Shown here piece by piece: positions 17,167-53,916 of a stretch of 64,000 nt of DNA (position 1 is the stretch's first letter; every line of letters begins with the position of its first letter). Made by a program: the position numbers and the translations under genes. The notes below the pieces were generated by a model that saw only the letters and a program-made list of their open reading frames with translations, did not search any database and had not been told where the DNA came from. The stretch is from positions 806,001 to 870,000 of the forward strand of contig NZ_JQMP01000003.1 in the NCBI RefSeq assembly GCF_000744775.1. The letters run 5' to 3'. This stretch comes from Thermorudis peleae (GTDB lineage Bacteria > Chloroflexota > Chloroflexia > Thermomicrobiales > Thermomicrobiaceae).

Positions 17167-17271
17167 GACGCGCATTCCGAGTGGTGGAGGGAACGGCCCG
17201 ACGAAACCCGGCAACCAGCGCGATCGCGCCAGGTGCCAATGCCGGCGGAAAGTTTCCGCACGATGCGCGTC
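17167..17271 (+). promoter_or_regulatory. SAM-I (S-box) riboswitch upstream of metE
   Basis: The P1 stem is GACGCGCAT (17167-17175) pairing perfectly with ATGCGCGTC (17263-17271). Inside are the SAM-I core elements in order: GGTGGAGGGAACGGCCC at about 17183-17199, GACGAAACCCGGCAACC at about 17200-17215, AGGTGCCAAT at 17231-17240, then GGCGGAAAG. This is the consensus of the S-box aptamer, which binds S-adenosylmethionine and turns off methionine genes. It precedes metE, the expected target. A strong hairpin (17298-17325) follows as expression platform. Confidence 0.93.
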
Positions 17272-48561: not shown

Positions 48562-49428
48562 TCACCGGAGTTCGAAAGGCGCCACAATCATCCCATAGTA
48601 TCGTGGTGCTTCATAGCTCAGCACGGTGCCGTGCATTGGAACTCGTCGCATAACGCCAGCAAGCATGAGTGTTTGCCATAATCCGTCAATGGCGGCATTG
48701 GCTACTTCCTCATCAGAAAGGTCAAGCAAGCGTTCCAGGTCATTTGCCTGTAAGGCTTCAACCACAGCCTGGTCGACACGCGCTGCATCGGGATGGAAGC
48801 CGTAGGGGCCATCTGCGCGATGGGTATGTGCCCAATCGCACGAAGCGATGAAGGCCACTCGTCGCCCGTCGGCCTCAACAGCTTCAGCCACCGCTTCACC
48901 AAAGGTGATCATTGCTGTACGCGGTAACGCGCGTGAGGGAGTCACAATCACAACTGGTGGCCCTGGATCATGCTCTGGCGTTGGGGCAAGCACATTCCCG
49001 TAACCAGGCATATCTTGGCCATAGCCAAGAAACCAAAGCGGTGTTATGACCCCCCAGTCAAGAGGAATGACGCTCTGATCACGGCGATTGCCTGCAAAAC
49101 CAGCAAGAGCGATCGGTACACCCGCGGCAGTCGCGCGCTGCGCGATCCGGTCGGTTAACTGGCCATCGACGGGCACGTTCATCTCGATCTTGCGATCATG
49201 CCACCACAAAGTGCCAGCGCCGCGAGCCGTATTAGCAAGGCAGATATGCCCTTCCACACGGACACCGTGCGGTGTTGCAACGACAAGCACATCAGGATGT
49301 GACGCAGCGCAGCGACGCCCAAGCTCTTCCATCGCTGCACGTGTGTGCAGCGCACCTTCCGCATCGTCGCTCAGTGCTGGAATAATTGGGAACCCATGCG
49401 GTGCCACAGCCCCAAAAACGATTGGCAT
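48562..49428 (-). CDS. LigB-family class III extradiol dioxygenase-like protein
   Basis: 288 residues. It starts MPIVFGAVAPHGFPIIPAL, and VVATPHGVRVEGH and the C-terminal FIASCDWAHTH provide histidines where class III extradiol dioxygenases bind iron. The LigB/MEMO fold includes aromatic ring-cleavage enzymes and proteins without catalysis, so the reaction is not assigned. The start is the ATG at 49428 after AAGGAGG; the open frame continues upstream through poorly conserved sequence that is not coding in my view. It is 55 bases downstream of the ABC ATPase gene on the same strand. Confidence 0.82.
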   Translation of the reverse strand: MPIVFGAVAPHGFPIIPALSDDAEGALHTRAAMEELGRRCAASHPDVLVVATPHGVRVEGHICLANTARGAGTLWWHDRKIEMNVPVDGQLTDRIAQRATAAGVPIALAGFAGNRRDQSVIPLDWGVITPLWFLGYGQDMPGYGNVLAPTPEHDPGPPVVIVTPSRALPRTAMITFGEAVAEAVEADGRRVAFIASCDWAHTHRADGPYGFHPDAARVDQAVVEALQANDLERLLDLSDEEVANAAIDGLWQTLMLAGVMRRVPMHGTVLSYEAPRYYGMIVAPFELR

Positions 49429-49483
49429 CGCAAACCTCCTTCCCTGTTCCCACCAGGCAGTATCAGGCAGCCGGCATGCAGCG

Positions 49484-50839
49484 TCAATGTGTCGCCTCGG
49501 CGTCACCGTTTTGTTCAAGGTAGAGAATGCCTGCGTGGTCATCGTATGCAAAGAGCTCAGCGTATCGCCCCCAGTCGATTGCCGTATCGAGTTGCCGTCG
49601 TGCCTCAACAGGACTGAAGGTCTCTTCGAGCCGCTGAATGAAGGGTTCCTCGGCAAGCCGATGCCGTGGTAAGCTGCGCAGCGCCGTCACAATCTCACGA
49701 ATCAATTCGATGCGGTCGAGTGCTTGACGGCGGAAAATCGCTTTCTTCTCAAGGACGTCCGCTTCAGCAAAGGCTGAGCCGACTGGTGTGAGCGTAACGT
49801 CACCCTCAAGTACTTCGACGAAATCGAGCAGGTCAGCTGCTTCAACAAGTGGCAACAACTCGTCGACCTCAAGCTGTAACTCACGCGCGAGTTCGTAGAG
49901 ATCTTCCCGCCCACCAAGAGCGGCCAGACGTTCAATAAAGCCAGTCAATTCTCCAATGCTCACATGAGGGAGCATCTGATAGGTGGGAACTTCGGCAGTC
50001 TGCAGCACGCGAGCCTGTGGGAGCAATGCGGTAATATCCTCGTGCGGATTCGTCATAATGCGGTAAATGGTGTCGACAAGTTGTGCATGCGCTTCTCCCT
50101 TGGCGAGACGCTCAGCAACGGGAAGACCCGGGAGTTCGACCCGAATTCTCCCCGGGTTTGCGCTAAAGATTAGTAACCGATCGGCCATACTGACCGCCTC
50201 ATCGATGTTGTGGGTGACCATCAGGATTGCCTGCGTGGGGATCTTTCGAGCAAGCCAGAGGTCAAGCAGTTCATGGCGAAGGTTTTCTGCAACGAGGACA
50301 TCCAGCGCTGAAAATGGTTCGTCCATAAAGAGGATCTCTGGTTCTCCGACAAGCGCACGGGCAAACCCGACCCGCTGCTTCATCCCTCCAGAAAGCTCAC
50401 GCGGATACGCGTGCTCGAATCCATCAAGCCCGATAAGATCGATAATCGCCAATGCACGTGCTCGTCGCTCAGCTTCCGGTAAATGTTTGTGGAGGAGCCC
50501 AAGCTCGACGTTTTGGAGGACCGTCAGCCATGGGTAGAGAGCGAACGACTGGAAAACCATTGCCACGTTCGGATTCACACCTTGCAGGGGTTGGCCATGG
50601 AGGAGCACGCGCCCGCTGGACGGCGGGATGAGGCCTGCGAGGATACGCAGCAACGTTGACTTTCCTGACCCGGATGGGCCAAGCAGAGCAACAAATTCTC
50701 CAGCTCGTAAGTCGAGCGTAATACGGTCAAGCACAAGAATACGGTTGCCATCCTGCCCGTAGTACTTCGTCACGTCCTGTGCTCGTAACAGAACAGGGGC
50801 CTCGTTGGTCGGACGGCGAACTGGCACGGTCTGTACCAT
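49484..50839 (-). CDS. NitT/TauT-like ABC transporter ATPase with C-terminal AAA-associated domain
   Basis: 451 residues. The ABC domain (about 15-260) has Walker A LLGPSGSGKST, the signature ELSGGMKQRVGFARAL and Walker B ILFMDEPFSALD, with the H-loop in VTHNIDEA, closest to nitrate/sulfonate/bicarbonate importers. A second domain (about 300-440) after HVSIGELTGFIERLAALGG matches the AAA-associated C-terminal domain found in some of these ATPases, likely regulatory. AAAGGAG precedes the ATG. It pairs with the fused permease encoded 18 bases upstream. The substrate is unknown. Confidence 0.9.
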   Translation of the reverse strand: MVQTVPVRRPTNEAPVLLRAQDVTKYYGQDGNRILVLDRITLDLRAGEFVALLGPSGSGKSTLLRILAGLIPPSSGRVLLHGQPLQGVNPNVAMVFQSFALYPWLTVLQNVELGLLHKHLPEAERRARALAIIDLIGLDGFEHAYPRELSGGMKQRVGFARALVGEPEILFMDEPFSALDVLVAENLRHELLDLWLARKIPTQAILMVTHNIDEAVSMADRLLIFSANPGRIRVELPGLPVAERLAKGEAHAQLVDTIYRIMTNPHEDITALLPQARVLQTAEVPTYQMLPHVSIGELTGFIERLAALGGREDLYELARELQLEVDELLPLVEAADLLDFVEVLEGDVTLTPVGSAFAEADVLEKKAIFRRQALDRIELIREIVTALRSLPRHRLAEEPFIQRLEETFSPVEARRQLDTAIDWGRYAELFAYDDHAGILYLEQNGDAEATH

Positions 50840-50857: not shown

Positions 50858-52618
50858 TTAATCCAGTCGGAAGCGTGTTGCTGCCAGGCGGTAGAGCCTG
50901 CGCCAAAATGCACGATTCAGCAGGACGACAACGACTGCCATGGTGAGTGTTGCAGCGAAGAGTTCGGGGTAGTTCCCTGCATTCGCGCTCGCAGCAATCA
51001 GTGCGCCGAGCCCTGATGTCTGATAGACCTGGTCCTGAAAAGTGACATACTCAGCGACGATTGTGGCGTTCCACGCACCACCAGCTGCCGTAATCAGTCC
51101 AGTAATGAGGAAAGGGAAAATAGCCGGCAGAATCAGAATGCGCCAGCGGTGCCAGCCAGTCAGGTGATAAATTGCTGCGGCCTCTTTCAAATCATTCGGA
51201 ATGGCCATGGCACCGGCAATGACGTTGAAGAGCACGTACCACTGCGTGCCGAGCAACATCAATGCGATAGCAGCGACGTCAAGACCTCCAGGGAGATGGA
51301 GCAAGAGCAGGAGTAAGGCTGGAAAGAGGGCGGTTGCGGGAATTGAGGCAACCATTTGGACGATTGGCTGAATCTTTGGGGCCCATCGTGGACTTAATCC
51401 AACGGCAACGCCCACTGGAACAGTCCAGATGACTGCAATCAGCAGAGAAGCAGCAACGCGCAGGAATGAGAGCCCAGCATCCTGTGCAATCGTTGCCCAC
51501 GCTGTTACTGGAAGCGCAATCAAGAGGTGGCCTGCTGCACGCACTCCCCAGCCGATGAGGAGTAGTATACCGAGACCGGCGAAGGTAGCGAATGTCCATC
51601 GCCATACTGTGCCTGGCGGTGAAATAGCATCGCTTGAAGCTGGAGATGGCTCGCCGGCAAAGATCCGGTTCATGAGCCGGTCAAGAGAGCGAGCAGTTGG
51701 GGCAACGAGGTGGTCACGTGCCCACGTGAGAAGAAGCGAGCGCTGCAGAATTTCAAGCACCCATGATGATGGCGTGACTAAGCCGGTCGTTTGTTCAACC
51801 TTGAAGCGGTCGGCCCATGCTAACAGGGGGCGCCAGAGAAACTGGTCGAGGAGGACAATCACAATAATGAGTGCGAGCAAGCCGAGTCCAAGTGCATGGA
51901 GGTCACCTCGGTCAGCTGCAACCTTGAGATAGGCACCCAGGCCAGGAAGCAGGAAACTTTGCTGCCCAAGAGTGAATTGCTCCGATGCCATAAGAAAGAA
52001 CCAGCCACCAGCCCAGCTCATCATTGAATTCCACAGCAGGGGAATGAGGCCGAATGGAAGCTCAAGCCGTGTGAAGCGCTCCCATGGCGTTAGTCGGAAA
52101 AGCCGAGCGACTTCACGGAAATCTTGCGGAATCGTGATCAGTGATTGATAAAAGCTAAAGGCAAGATTCCATGCTTGACTCGTGAAAATCAACACAATTG
52201 CTGCAAGTTCCGTTCCTAAACTGCGGTGTGGGAAGAGCGTCACGAGAGCAAGCACGACGCCAGGCATAAACGAGAGAATGGGAATGCTCTGCAAGATGTC
52301 GAGTAATGGTACGAGTACTCGCTCGGTTGCTTTACTCGCCACAGCGATCCGTGCATAGAGCAGGCTAAACGAGAGCGCAAGTACATAGGCAAGGGCCATG
52401 CGCGAGAGCGAAAAGAGTGCATACTGCGGCAGTACCCAGGGGGAGAGACTGATTGCTGTTGTCGGCGTGAGCGGAGCCGTCCATCGCTCGGCGATCCGGA
52501 TGATCCCGTAGATGCCAAGAACCAGCATGATGGCGAGCAACAGATCGATCCACCATGCTGAGCGGACGTGGCGAAGTGGCTGGCGATGGACGATAAAGGG
52601 CCAGACACGCGAAATCAC
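50858..52618 (-). CDS. ABC transporter permease with two fused membrane domains
   Basis: 586 residues: two BPD_transp_1 domains in tandem, about 25-265 and 345-580. Each has an EAA-like loop (REVARLFRLTPWERFTRLELP in the first, KEAAAIYHLTGWHRWRILILP in the second). So one polypeptide gives the whole channel, unlike the usual homodimer of SsuC/TauC. GTG at 52618 follows AAGGAGGT by five bases. No solute-binding protein is encoded next to it. It has its own promoter and a 217-base leader with hairpins. Import of a small anion or metal complex is only a guess by family. Confidence 0.88.
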   Translation of the reverse strand: MISRVWPFIVHRQPLRHVRSAWWIDLLLAIMLVLGIYGIIRIAERWTAPLTPTTAISLSPWVLPQYALFSLSRMALAYVLALSFSLLYARIAVASKATERVLVPLLDILQSIPILSFMPGVVLALVTLFPHRSLGTELAAIVLIFTSQAWNLAFSFYQSLITIPQDFREVARLFRLTPWERFTRLELPFGLIPLLWNSMMSWAGGWFFLMASEQFTLGQQSFLLPGLGAYLKVAADRGDLHALGLGLLALIIVIVLLDQFLWRPLLAWADRFKVEQTTGLVTPSSWVLEILQRSLLLTWARDHLVAPTARSLDRLMNRIFAGEPSPASSDAISPPGTVWRWTFATFAGLGILLLIGWGVRAAGHLLIALPVTAWATIAQDAGLSFLRVAASLLIAVIWTVPVGVAVGLSPRWAPKIQPIVQMVASIPATALFPALLLLLLHLPGGLDVAAIALMLLGTQWYVLFNVIAGAMAIPNDLKEAAAIYHLTGWHRWRILILPAIFPFLITGLITAAGGAWNATIVAEYVTFQDQVYQTSGLGALIAASANAGNYPELFAATLTMAVVVVLLNRAFWRRLYRLAATRFRLD

Positions 52619-52657
52619 GCGGCACCTCCTTATCACGAAGCTCCCTTGGAGTACATG

Positions 52658-52680
52658 CCGCCCCTACCAGTGAGGGGCGG
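52658..52680 (-). terminator. Hairpin in the leader of the ABC operon
   Basis: CCGCCCCT (52658-52665) pairs perfectly with AGGGGCGG (52673-52680) around a 7-base loop, 40 bases before the permease start on the minus strand. It could act as attenuator. No clear T tract follows. Confidence 0.6.
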
Positions 52681-52836
52681 TGTGCCGCGTGATGATCGAG
52701 GGAAATGTGCTAGGTCAGCTCACCAGCCCCACCGGTAGGAACGGCTGACGTCGCGGACTTGGGCCGTCGTCGTGCATTGCTTCCGTTCCTCCGAGGTCCC
52801 TGCACTGGCTGGAGCGCACCAATGATGCGCGCCAGC
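52681..52836 (-). promoter_or_regulatory. Structured leader RNA upstream of the ABC permease (candidate riboswitch)
   Basis: Transcribed from about 52836 downwards. Hairpin 1: CTGG and GCGCA (52809-52818) pair with TGCGC and CCAG (52826-52835). Hairpin 2: GTGCA (52772-52776) pairs with TGCAC (52801-52805). Inside the loop of hairpin 2, CCGTTCC (52783-52789) is a perfect complement of GGAACGG (52738-52744), a possible pseudoknot. The terminator-like stem 52658-52680 follows. I match it to no riboswitch class I know. The ligand, if any, is unknown. Confidence 0.45.
52715..52777 (-). CDS. Possible 20-residue leader peptide
   Basis: On the minus strand an ATG at 52777, ten bases after GGAGG, opens a frame of 20 codons (MHDDGPSPRRQPFLPVGLVS) that ends with TGA before the leader hairpin 52658-52680. 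It overlaps the structured leader of the ABC operon, so it may be chance or a regulatory upstream ORF. No homology is known to me. Confidence 0.25.
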   Translation of the reverse strand: MHDDGPSPRRQPFLPVGLVS

Positions 52837-52842
52837 GGTTGG

Positions 52843-52872
52843 AGTGTACGCCGAGGTGTGCAGAGGGCGCAA
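52843..52872 (-). promoter_or_regulatory. Candidate promoter of the ABC operon leader
   Basis: On the minus strand, TTGCGC (52872-52867), 18 bases, then TACACT (52848-52843). The start near 52836 coincides with the first base of leader hairpin 1. The same TACACT -10 box occurs before pyrC. Confidence 0.5.
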
Positions 52873-52903: not shown

Positions 52904-53874
52904 TCAGAGCCAACGGATGTGGCGGAAAAGTGCAAACAACCCAATGACAAGAACAGCCATGCCGGCAAGGACCGCGTAGTATCCCCACCAAAGGTTAAGC
53001 TCCGGCATGTTCTTGAAGTTCATCCCATAAATGCCGGCGATGAGCGCTAGTGTCATCAAGATGATGCTCCAGGCTGTGAGCGTGCGCATTACCTGGTTCA
53101 GCTGGTTTGAGGTCACCGAAAGATGGGCTTCCAGCATGCCCGCCAGCAGATCTCGATAGGTATCAACCGTGTCAAGAATGCGCAGGACATGGTCATAGAG
53201 ATCTTGAAAGTACAACATCGCGTCGTCACCAAAAGGTTGTCATCGAAGCGCAGGAATGCATTGAGTGCGTCACGCTCCGGGGCAAGAATTCGCCGCAAGG
53301 TAAGAAGGGTTTTGCGGAGACGAAAGAGATCACTGAGGACAGCATTATTTGCACTTGCAATAATGGCTTCTTCGATTTCTTCCGCTTGCTCAGCTAACTG
53401 GTCAAGAAGAGTAAAGTATTGATCAAAAAATGTGTCAAGAATGGTATACAGCAGCAGGGCAAGATGGGAAAGGTGCGGGTTCATCTCTGCCTGCTGCTGC
53501 CATCGCTCGGCGATGGAGGCAAGTTCAGGACAGGGAGCGCGATGAATCGTCACGAGATAATTTTTGCCGATAAAGAAATTAATTTCTTGATACTGTAGAG
53601 GAGGCCCTCCTGCTAGGCGTACTGCGTAAAAGACGAAGAAGAAATAGTGATCGTATCGATCGAGTTTCGGCCGCTGATGAGCCTTCTGTACATCTTCAAG
53701 AGCAAGGGGATGGAAGCCGAACTCACGCTGGAGAAGAGCAATGTCATGCTCAGTGGGTTGCTCAATATCGAGCCAGAGCAATCCTTCATCCCGCGCAATG
53801 ATCTGATCAATTTCATCAACACTTGGTAAGCGCCGTGTCCCTTTTTCAAGGAGTACCGCAATGTGCGCTGGCAT
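52904..53874 (-). pseudogene. corA: CorA-type magnesium/cobalt transporter with a frameshift
   Basis: Two overlapping frames together make one CorA of about 320 residues. The upstream frame (start ATG 53874) covers the cytoplasmic domain to AFLRFDDNLL; the downstream frame continues DAMLYFQDLYDHVLRILD through the two membrane segments with the conserved YGMNF motif before the pore end. One missing base near 53229-53236, in the minus-strand run CCTTTTGG, breaks the frame: an extra G would restore FDDNLLGDDAMLYF. It may be a real inactivating indel, a sequencing error at the homopolymer, or a site of -1 ribosomal slippage. It lies downstream of the enoyl-CoA hydratase gene. An intact CorA forms a pentameric Mg2+ channel. 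Confidence 0.85.
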
Positions 53875-53916
53875 TACTGTCCCGTTCAACGCTTTATGCC
53901 ATACTGCGTCGGTTGA

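Follow-up and report, generated by a model that had tools for sequence, protein, structure and literature searches.

Known magnesium-responsive leaders

Leader peptides that sense Mg2+ are, to our knowledge, known mainly from enterobacteria. In the Salmonella mgtCBRU operon, the eight-codon upstream open reading frame (uORF) mgtQ lies between mgtC and mgtB; Asp2 and Glu5 of this small uORF are needed, and destabilization of the ribosome has been proposed, while pairing of leader segments 2 and 3 replaces the 1:2 and 3:4 pairings and thereby releases the ribosome-binding site (RBS) of the transporter (PMC8092293). Salmonella mgtP was reported in the same work to respond to charged tRNA-Pro (PMC8092293). 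For MgtL, encoded upstream of mgtA in E. coli and Salmonella, early ribosome drop-off at EPDP under low Mg2+ has been proposed, and its output is transcriptional, through a Rho-dependent terminator (PMC11282234). Control of an Nramp-related Mg2+ transporter by an M-box (RF00380) has been demonstrated experimentally (PMC4072509). Short ORFs have also been described next to M-boxes: the mycobacterial uORF2 (Rv1805A), located 3' of an M-box and described as mycobacteria-specific, is translated and has a conserved N-terminus with Pro7 and no assigned role (PMC12810186), and in M. abscessus a ribosome-protected uORF lies beside the M-box before mgtE (PMC4974804). In the open-access literature, no paper was found that mentions MDAGPS in the sense of a leader peptide, nor one on a general association of M-boxes with acidic/Pro uORFs.

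The leader analyzed here is contained in a window of 64,000 nt of Thermorudis peleae DNA and precedes an ABC transporter operon. With a probability of roughly two in three, it is a leader-peptide translational attenuator akin to MgtL and MgtQ but from a different phylum, the target being a Mg2+-regulated, or at least Mg2+-linked, ABC operon. Like mgtQ, it has a short uORF with early acidic codons and a choice between 1:2 plus 3:4 and 2:3, with the RBS in 3:4; unlike mgtQ, whose sequence is unrelated and whose target is MgtB, this predicted attenuator precedes an ABC system. With MgtL it shares an acidic/Pro peptide start before a (here putative) Mg2+ transporter and the proposed destabilization of ribosomes at low Mg2+; MgtL differs in acting through Rho and in having EPDP as its motif rather than (D/A)GPS.

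The operon and its leader

The first-pass annotation had described a NitT/TauT-like operon devoid of a binding protein, and both points hold. The permease (50858-52618, minus strand) has two BPD_transp_1 domains (Pfam PF00528, two stretches), and the ATPase (49484-50839, minus strand) combines PF00005 with the C-terminal AAA-associated domain PF09821, as in NitT/TauT-type importers. The system missed every NCBIfam equivalog cut-off and thus receives no substrate name; that regulation of the leader may hint at the cargo is agreed. The permease is likely to start at the GTG at 52618-52616, placed by alignment with its counterparts in the two relatives described below. Upstream lies a CorA-like Mg2+ transporter gene (52904-53889, minus strand), split over two frames with PF01544 in both pieces; the overlapping ORFs, of 258 and 104 aa, correspond to CorA positions 2-182 and 192-291, and the split reflects either a frameshift or a sequencing error. 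A LigB-domain protein gene (48562-49656, minus strand), located 3' of the ATPase gene on the same strand and overlapping its ORF, is possibly a third operon member.

The proposed promoter (52843-52872, minus strand) consists of TTGCGC (52872-52867), an 18-nt spacer and TACACT (52848-52843). It remains putative: it is weak (7/12 consensus positions), under the scanner threshold and therefore unreported, but in both relatives TATACT occupies the place of TACACT. At the 5' end of the transcript, the hairpin at 52809-52835 (minus strand) is paired in the minimum free energy structure. The following one (52772-52805) exists, but merely as GTGCA/TGCAC enclosing a 24-nt loop. The loop bases GGAACGG (52789-52783) are, as had been stated, a perfect complement of CCGTTCC (52744-52738), and the match grows to about 11 bp, CGGAGGAACGG (52793-52783) with CCGTTCCTACCG (52744-52733). 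The terminator-like stem (52680-52658) is present as CCGCCCC/GGGGCGG, but it is followed by CATGTACT rather than by a T-run, and the terminator scan found no intrinsic terminator on the minus strand; an intrinsic-terminator attenuator, which consists of a G+C-rich stem and a T-run, was rejected.

Compared with dinucleotide shuffles, the 233-nt leader as a whole has a more stable fold (z = -2.67, 2/200), so that the claim of a structured leader on a transporter operon stands, its elements being real. This excess is mainly due to the part 3' of the uORF (z = -3.2, 3/500), while the 126-nt 5' part alone folds no better than shuffles (z = -0.73). The leader is probably regulatory. With Rfam 15, it gave no match at the gathering score, in agreement with the first-pass view that no known riboswitch class is present, and none on the leader strand even at E up to 10; a match obtained at the relaxed threshold, a spurious lncRNA on the opposite strand, was discarded. 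The only gathering-level Rfam match of the window is a SAM-I riboswitch (RF00162) at 17169-17269, plus strand, with 78 bits.

A short ORF and predicted alternative pairings

Two features had been overlooked: an ORF with a strong Shine-Dalgarno (SD) sequence midway through the leader, and a 12-bp helix enclosing the main RBS and start codon. The uORF (52715-52777, minus strand) has 20 codons, from an ATG at 52777 to a TGA stop (52717-52715), and encodes MHDDGPSPRRQPFLPVGLVS; the peptide start, MHDDGPSP, is of the acidic/Gly-Pro type. Its SD region (52783-52793, minus strand), with GGAGG at 52792-52788, is segment 1. Segment 2 (GCCGTTCCTACCGGTG, 52730-52745, minus strand) lies in the 3' half of the uORF and can pair with segment 1 or with segment 3 (CACTGGTAGGGGCGGC, 52657-52672, minus strand), of which it is a 16-bp complement and which forms the 3' side of the stem 52680-52658. 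Segment 4 (52614-52631, minus strand) comprises the main RBS AAGGAGG (52631-52625) and the GTG codon, and is sequestered in the predicted folds; an anti-RBS arm (ATCACGCGGCAC, 52682-52693, minus strand) is a 12-bp complement of 52625-52614, and this pairing is counted as 3:4, segment 3 standing for the anti-RBS region. The supposed pseudoknot is the 1:2 pairing (52793-52783 with 52744-52733), its loop being the SD of the uORF and its partner the 3' half of the uORF, and the stem taken for an expression platform is part of the anti-RBS hairpin; the reading as aptamer, pseudoknot and expression platform is not supported.

The 1:2, 2:3 and 3:4 pairings are also found in both relatives, and by computation the arrangement is that of mgtQ. 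In the window and in the relatives G013 and G016, respectively, shuffled sequences formed an equally good 2:3 duplex in 0, 12 and 1 of 500 cases and an equally good 3:4 duplex in 10, 18 and 9 of 500, whereas 1:2 is only weakly above shuffles (62, 42 and 103 of 500 as good). G013 preserves the RBS helix, two of its pairs differing from those of the window by compensatory changes (CCACGCGGTAC/GTACCGCGTGG). When the uORF end is freed, the computed cost of opening the RBS falls from 16.2 to 9.7 kcal/mol in the window, from 20.5 to 13.5 in G013 and from 18.6 to 16.9 in G016, a gain matched by shuffled uORF ends in 1, 31 and 0 of 200 cases. These constrained-opening and duplex tests were used in place of a simple ribosome-position folding model: a plain partition function with ribosome positions left the RBS mostly closed at every position, which counts against the attenuator and implies that any switching would need to rely on folding kinetics or on help from the ribosome.

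Orthologous leaders in the closest relatives

The two closest operons (L003 and L004) come from genomes of the family to which the window belongs, and their permeases are 59% and 57% identical to that of the window. At the place of the uORF, they carry SD-led short ORFs, MREGPSPQRPVLRSGGTVNR (MREGPSP...) in L003 and MDEGPSLSGLGRWLAGR (MDEGPSL...) in L004; early acidic codons, as in mgtQ, are Asp3 and Asp4 in the window, Glu3 in L003, and Asp2 and Glu3 in L004. A DNA search of 60 relatives with the window leader gave chance matches only, and the three leaders have no conserved non-coding sequence in common: what they share is the SD-led reading frame. Thus the comparison of homologous leaders, proposed earlier as a check on the aptamer, found the [D/E]GPS coding motif, with free third bases at Gly and Pro, and the 2:3 versus 3:4 alternative to be conserved, not an aptamer, for a window-type layout defined by three sequences. 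The DNA pattern SD-ATG-GPS occurs 2-5 times per genome in the three genomes, both strands counted, and its chance of falling in one given 150-nt leader is estimated at about 1e-4. One further SD-led short ORF in the window's own genome (L161:1165), MNVGPSSSSAWRR..., precedes an HtpX-like protease gene and has an AGC serine codon; it may be a chance occurrence.

The MDxGPS family in Chloroflexota

Other Chloroflexota homologs of the permease are preceded by uORFs starting MDAGPSSS..., MDDGPSCR..., MDEGPGSP... and MDAGPEQR.... A family, named here MDxGPS, was defined as SD-led short ORFs of the form M..[A/D/E]GPS whose serine is encoded by AGT and which precede a gene for a Mg2+-linked transporter; the window's uORF belongs to it with MHDDGPS and AGT, having one extra residue before GPS. 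When 400 Chloroflexota genomes were searched for MD[A/D]GP followed by a Ser-like codon, about 80 hits were obtained. Those with an AGT serine represent 32 distinct copies, 31 of which are followed by a gene for an MgtE-type or Nramp-type protein or a window-type ABC permease, while the remaining one lies at a contig border, about 150 nt 3' of an M-box; the tested representatives of the downstream genes matched the Pfam families MgtE_N, CBS and MgtE, or Nramp. The non-AGT hits were set aside as chance-like, being scattered, mostly without SD or within other frames, and comparable in number to the reversed-pattern control. Across the 32 copies the MDAGPS serine codon never departs from AGT, which the search imposed for most of them, and AGT also encodes this serine in the three leaders of the window type.

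All 39 uORFs compared keep Gly and Pro, with three and four different third bases in the respective codons, and Asp, Glu and Ala interchange directly before Gly-Pro; these patterns indicate selection on the peptide. The conservation is limited to the first 6-9 residues, the ORFs being 17-57 aa long with unrelated ends. A strict MDxGPS search of 297 Actinomycetota found none, so that all finds of the motif itself are from Chloroflexota; the family tracks Mg2+ transporters through a phylum distant from enterobacteria.

Ktedonobacteria-type mgtE leaders (L255-L274 and L308-L316), which gave no M-box hit, have a near-invariant AAGGAGGTGAGGGA-N(1-4)-ATGGACGCTGGCCCNAGT in the uORF region, a downstream CTCCTCATCGAGT whose CCTCAT complements the SD of the uORF, and a TGNTATACT promoter about 110 nt upstream. 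Covariation in their consensus structure is modest (two-sided changes at six pairs, covariation term -1.3), and no conserved aptamer is therefore claimed.

Magnesium as the probable signal

In eight other genomes (G101, G092, G069, G136, G106, G338 and two Clostridium), an M-box lies upstream of the same ABC permease; this finding, together with the adjacent CorA-like gene, suggests that Mg2+ is probably the signal for the window leader. By this association the ABC operon appears to be part of a Mg2+ regulon, and the transporter would carry Mg2+ or a Mg2+-linked solute. Thirty Chloroflexota M-box loci include 6 before a window-type permease, 10 before Nramp-type and 6 before MgtE-type genes; M-boxes thus govern the same transporter families and often lie directly upstream of an MDAGPS uORF. 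Unlike in those loci, no match to RF00380 was obtained in the window leader at E up to 10, nor, at the sensitivity of the search, in the window's genome or those of the two relatives; the idea of a degenerate M-box in the window was dropped, as neither the relaxed leader search nor the genome search supported it.

Proposed mechanism and alternative explanations

In the attenuator reading, 3:4 would hide the permease RBS, 2:3 would free it, and 1:2 would favor 3:4. When Mg2+ is sufficient, the uORF, presumed to be translated, would be read to its end, 1:2 and 3:4 would form and the transporter would be off. At low Mg2+, ribosomes on MHDDGPSP would pause or drop off early, as proposed from the mgtQ-like layout, the likeness to the MgtL sensor and the peptide start itself; early abortion would thus be the sensor, leaving segment 1 covered and segment 2 free, so that 2:3 would form and the permease would be translated. 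What the sequences do show, a family of uORFs that accompanies Mg2+ transporter genes and alternative pairings common to the three leaders, makes this reading preferable to an aptamer. Against it count the fact that most permease homologs have neither an M-box nor a recognized uORF, the restriction of the window-type layout to three sequences, the weak 1:2 pairing, the single acidic residue of many MDAGPS members, fewer than in MgtL, and the invariant AGT codon, for which the model does not account.

This codon, together with the Pro of the motif, would fit attenuation by amino-acid supply or antibiotics, in which the uORF senses charged tRNA (Pro, Ser or Arg) or ribosome-targeting drugs and the Mg2+ genes are under indirect control; the response of mgtP to charged tRNA-Pro provides a precedent. 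Each uORF, however, has Pro at just one or two positions and lacks any stretch of one repeated amino acid, all four Pro codons are in use, and what the members have in common is an acidic residue, in line with the acidic excess in residues 2-6 of the uORFs following M-boxes (see below). This makes the explanation rather unlikely.

Slightly less probable still is an undescribed riboswitch, a pseudoknotted aptamer with its expression platform in which the ORF is incidental. The strong folding of the leader and its long-range loop complement are compatible with it, whatever the ligand, and the Ktedonobacteria leaders of the uORF family have nucleotide conservation beyond codons. The lack of an Rfam match, the 5' part that folds like its shuffles, the identity of the loop complement with the uORF SD, and the sharing by the window, L003 and L004 of a reading frame with varying Gly and Pro third bases, rather than of non-coding sequence, argue against it. 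That the short ORF encodes a functional small protein and no cis regulator, as might be suggested by uORF2 (Rv1805A), which is translated, has a homolog outside M-box loci and for which a peptide function was suggested (PMC12810186), is very improbable given conservation of the first residues only, variable lengths with unrelated ends, and a uORF end that, in each of the three window-type leaders, also takes part in RNA pairing.

Acidic/Pro uORFs downstream of M-boxes

SD-led short ORFs located 40-260 nt 3' of M-boxes were scanned in Chloroflexota, Actinomycetota and Bacillota, and classed as acidic/Pro when residues 2-6 contain two or more D/E, or one D/E and a Pro; examples are MESDPGHR, MSPGDSPY, MPEDGERP, MDDPDADL, METDPGRS, MDPIPIQK and MESEEGDY, besides others. 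Such starts were found in 36 of 72 non-redundant post-M-box ORFs. Among the other SD-led short ORFs of these loci the count was 41 of 504 (p = 1e-16), and among 513 long-ORF starts the share was 13.6% (p = 2e-11). The acidic excess concerns residues 2-6 and not 7-11 in Chloroflexota and Actinomycetota, while in Bacillota a smaller excess continues. Since the class was fixed after part of the data had been seen, a held-out set of 20 additional Bacillota M-box loci was then retrieved: 10 of 20 ORFs qualified (MDPSPLPS, MDPVPRAG, MDTDPDGR and MEPESSNG among them), with p = 0.011 relative to the small background of this set, 3e-6 relative to the pooled background and 2e-4 relative to long-ORF starts. 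All these p values are indicative, given uneven sampling across species and the dependence among related loci. About half of the M-box loci examined have an acidic/Pro uORF: 42 of 82, and in the held-out set 9 of 20. The mycobacterial uORF2 resembles these ORFs in lying 3' of an M-box and in its N-terminus with Pro7, its probable counterparts here starting MSxxDSP; it differs in being without the GPS motif.

A broader proposal, which we hold tentatively and at somewhat less than even odds, is that acidic/Pro peptides acting through early abortion serve Mg2+ transport genes generally as a second Mg2+ sensor, shared or convergent among Bacillota, Actinomycetota and Chloroflexota and placed often in series with an M-box but, as in the window, also on their own, and that the double-permease ABC system is an unrecognized Mg2+ importer. 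If so, ribosome stability would be a widespread gauge of Mg2+ and many M-box genes would bear two Mg2+ sensors in series; the conserved mycobacterial uORF2 would gain a possible role, and a common orphan ABC transporter a cargo hypothesis. MgtE leaders without M-box in the window's family have few acidic/Pro uORFs. The mgtE genes of its genus g6 that have no M-box are preceded by SD-led ORFs starting MDASDPSV, MDVPSSTR and MDVPSPSR (L404, L409 and L412).
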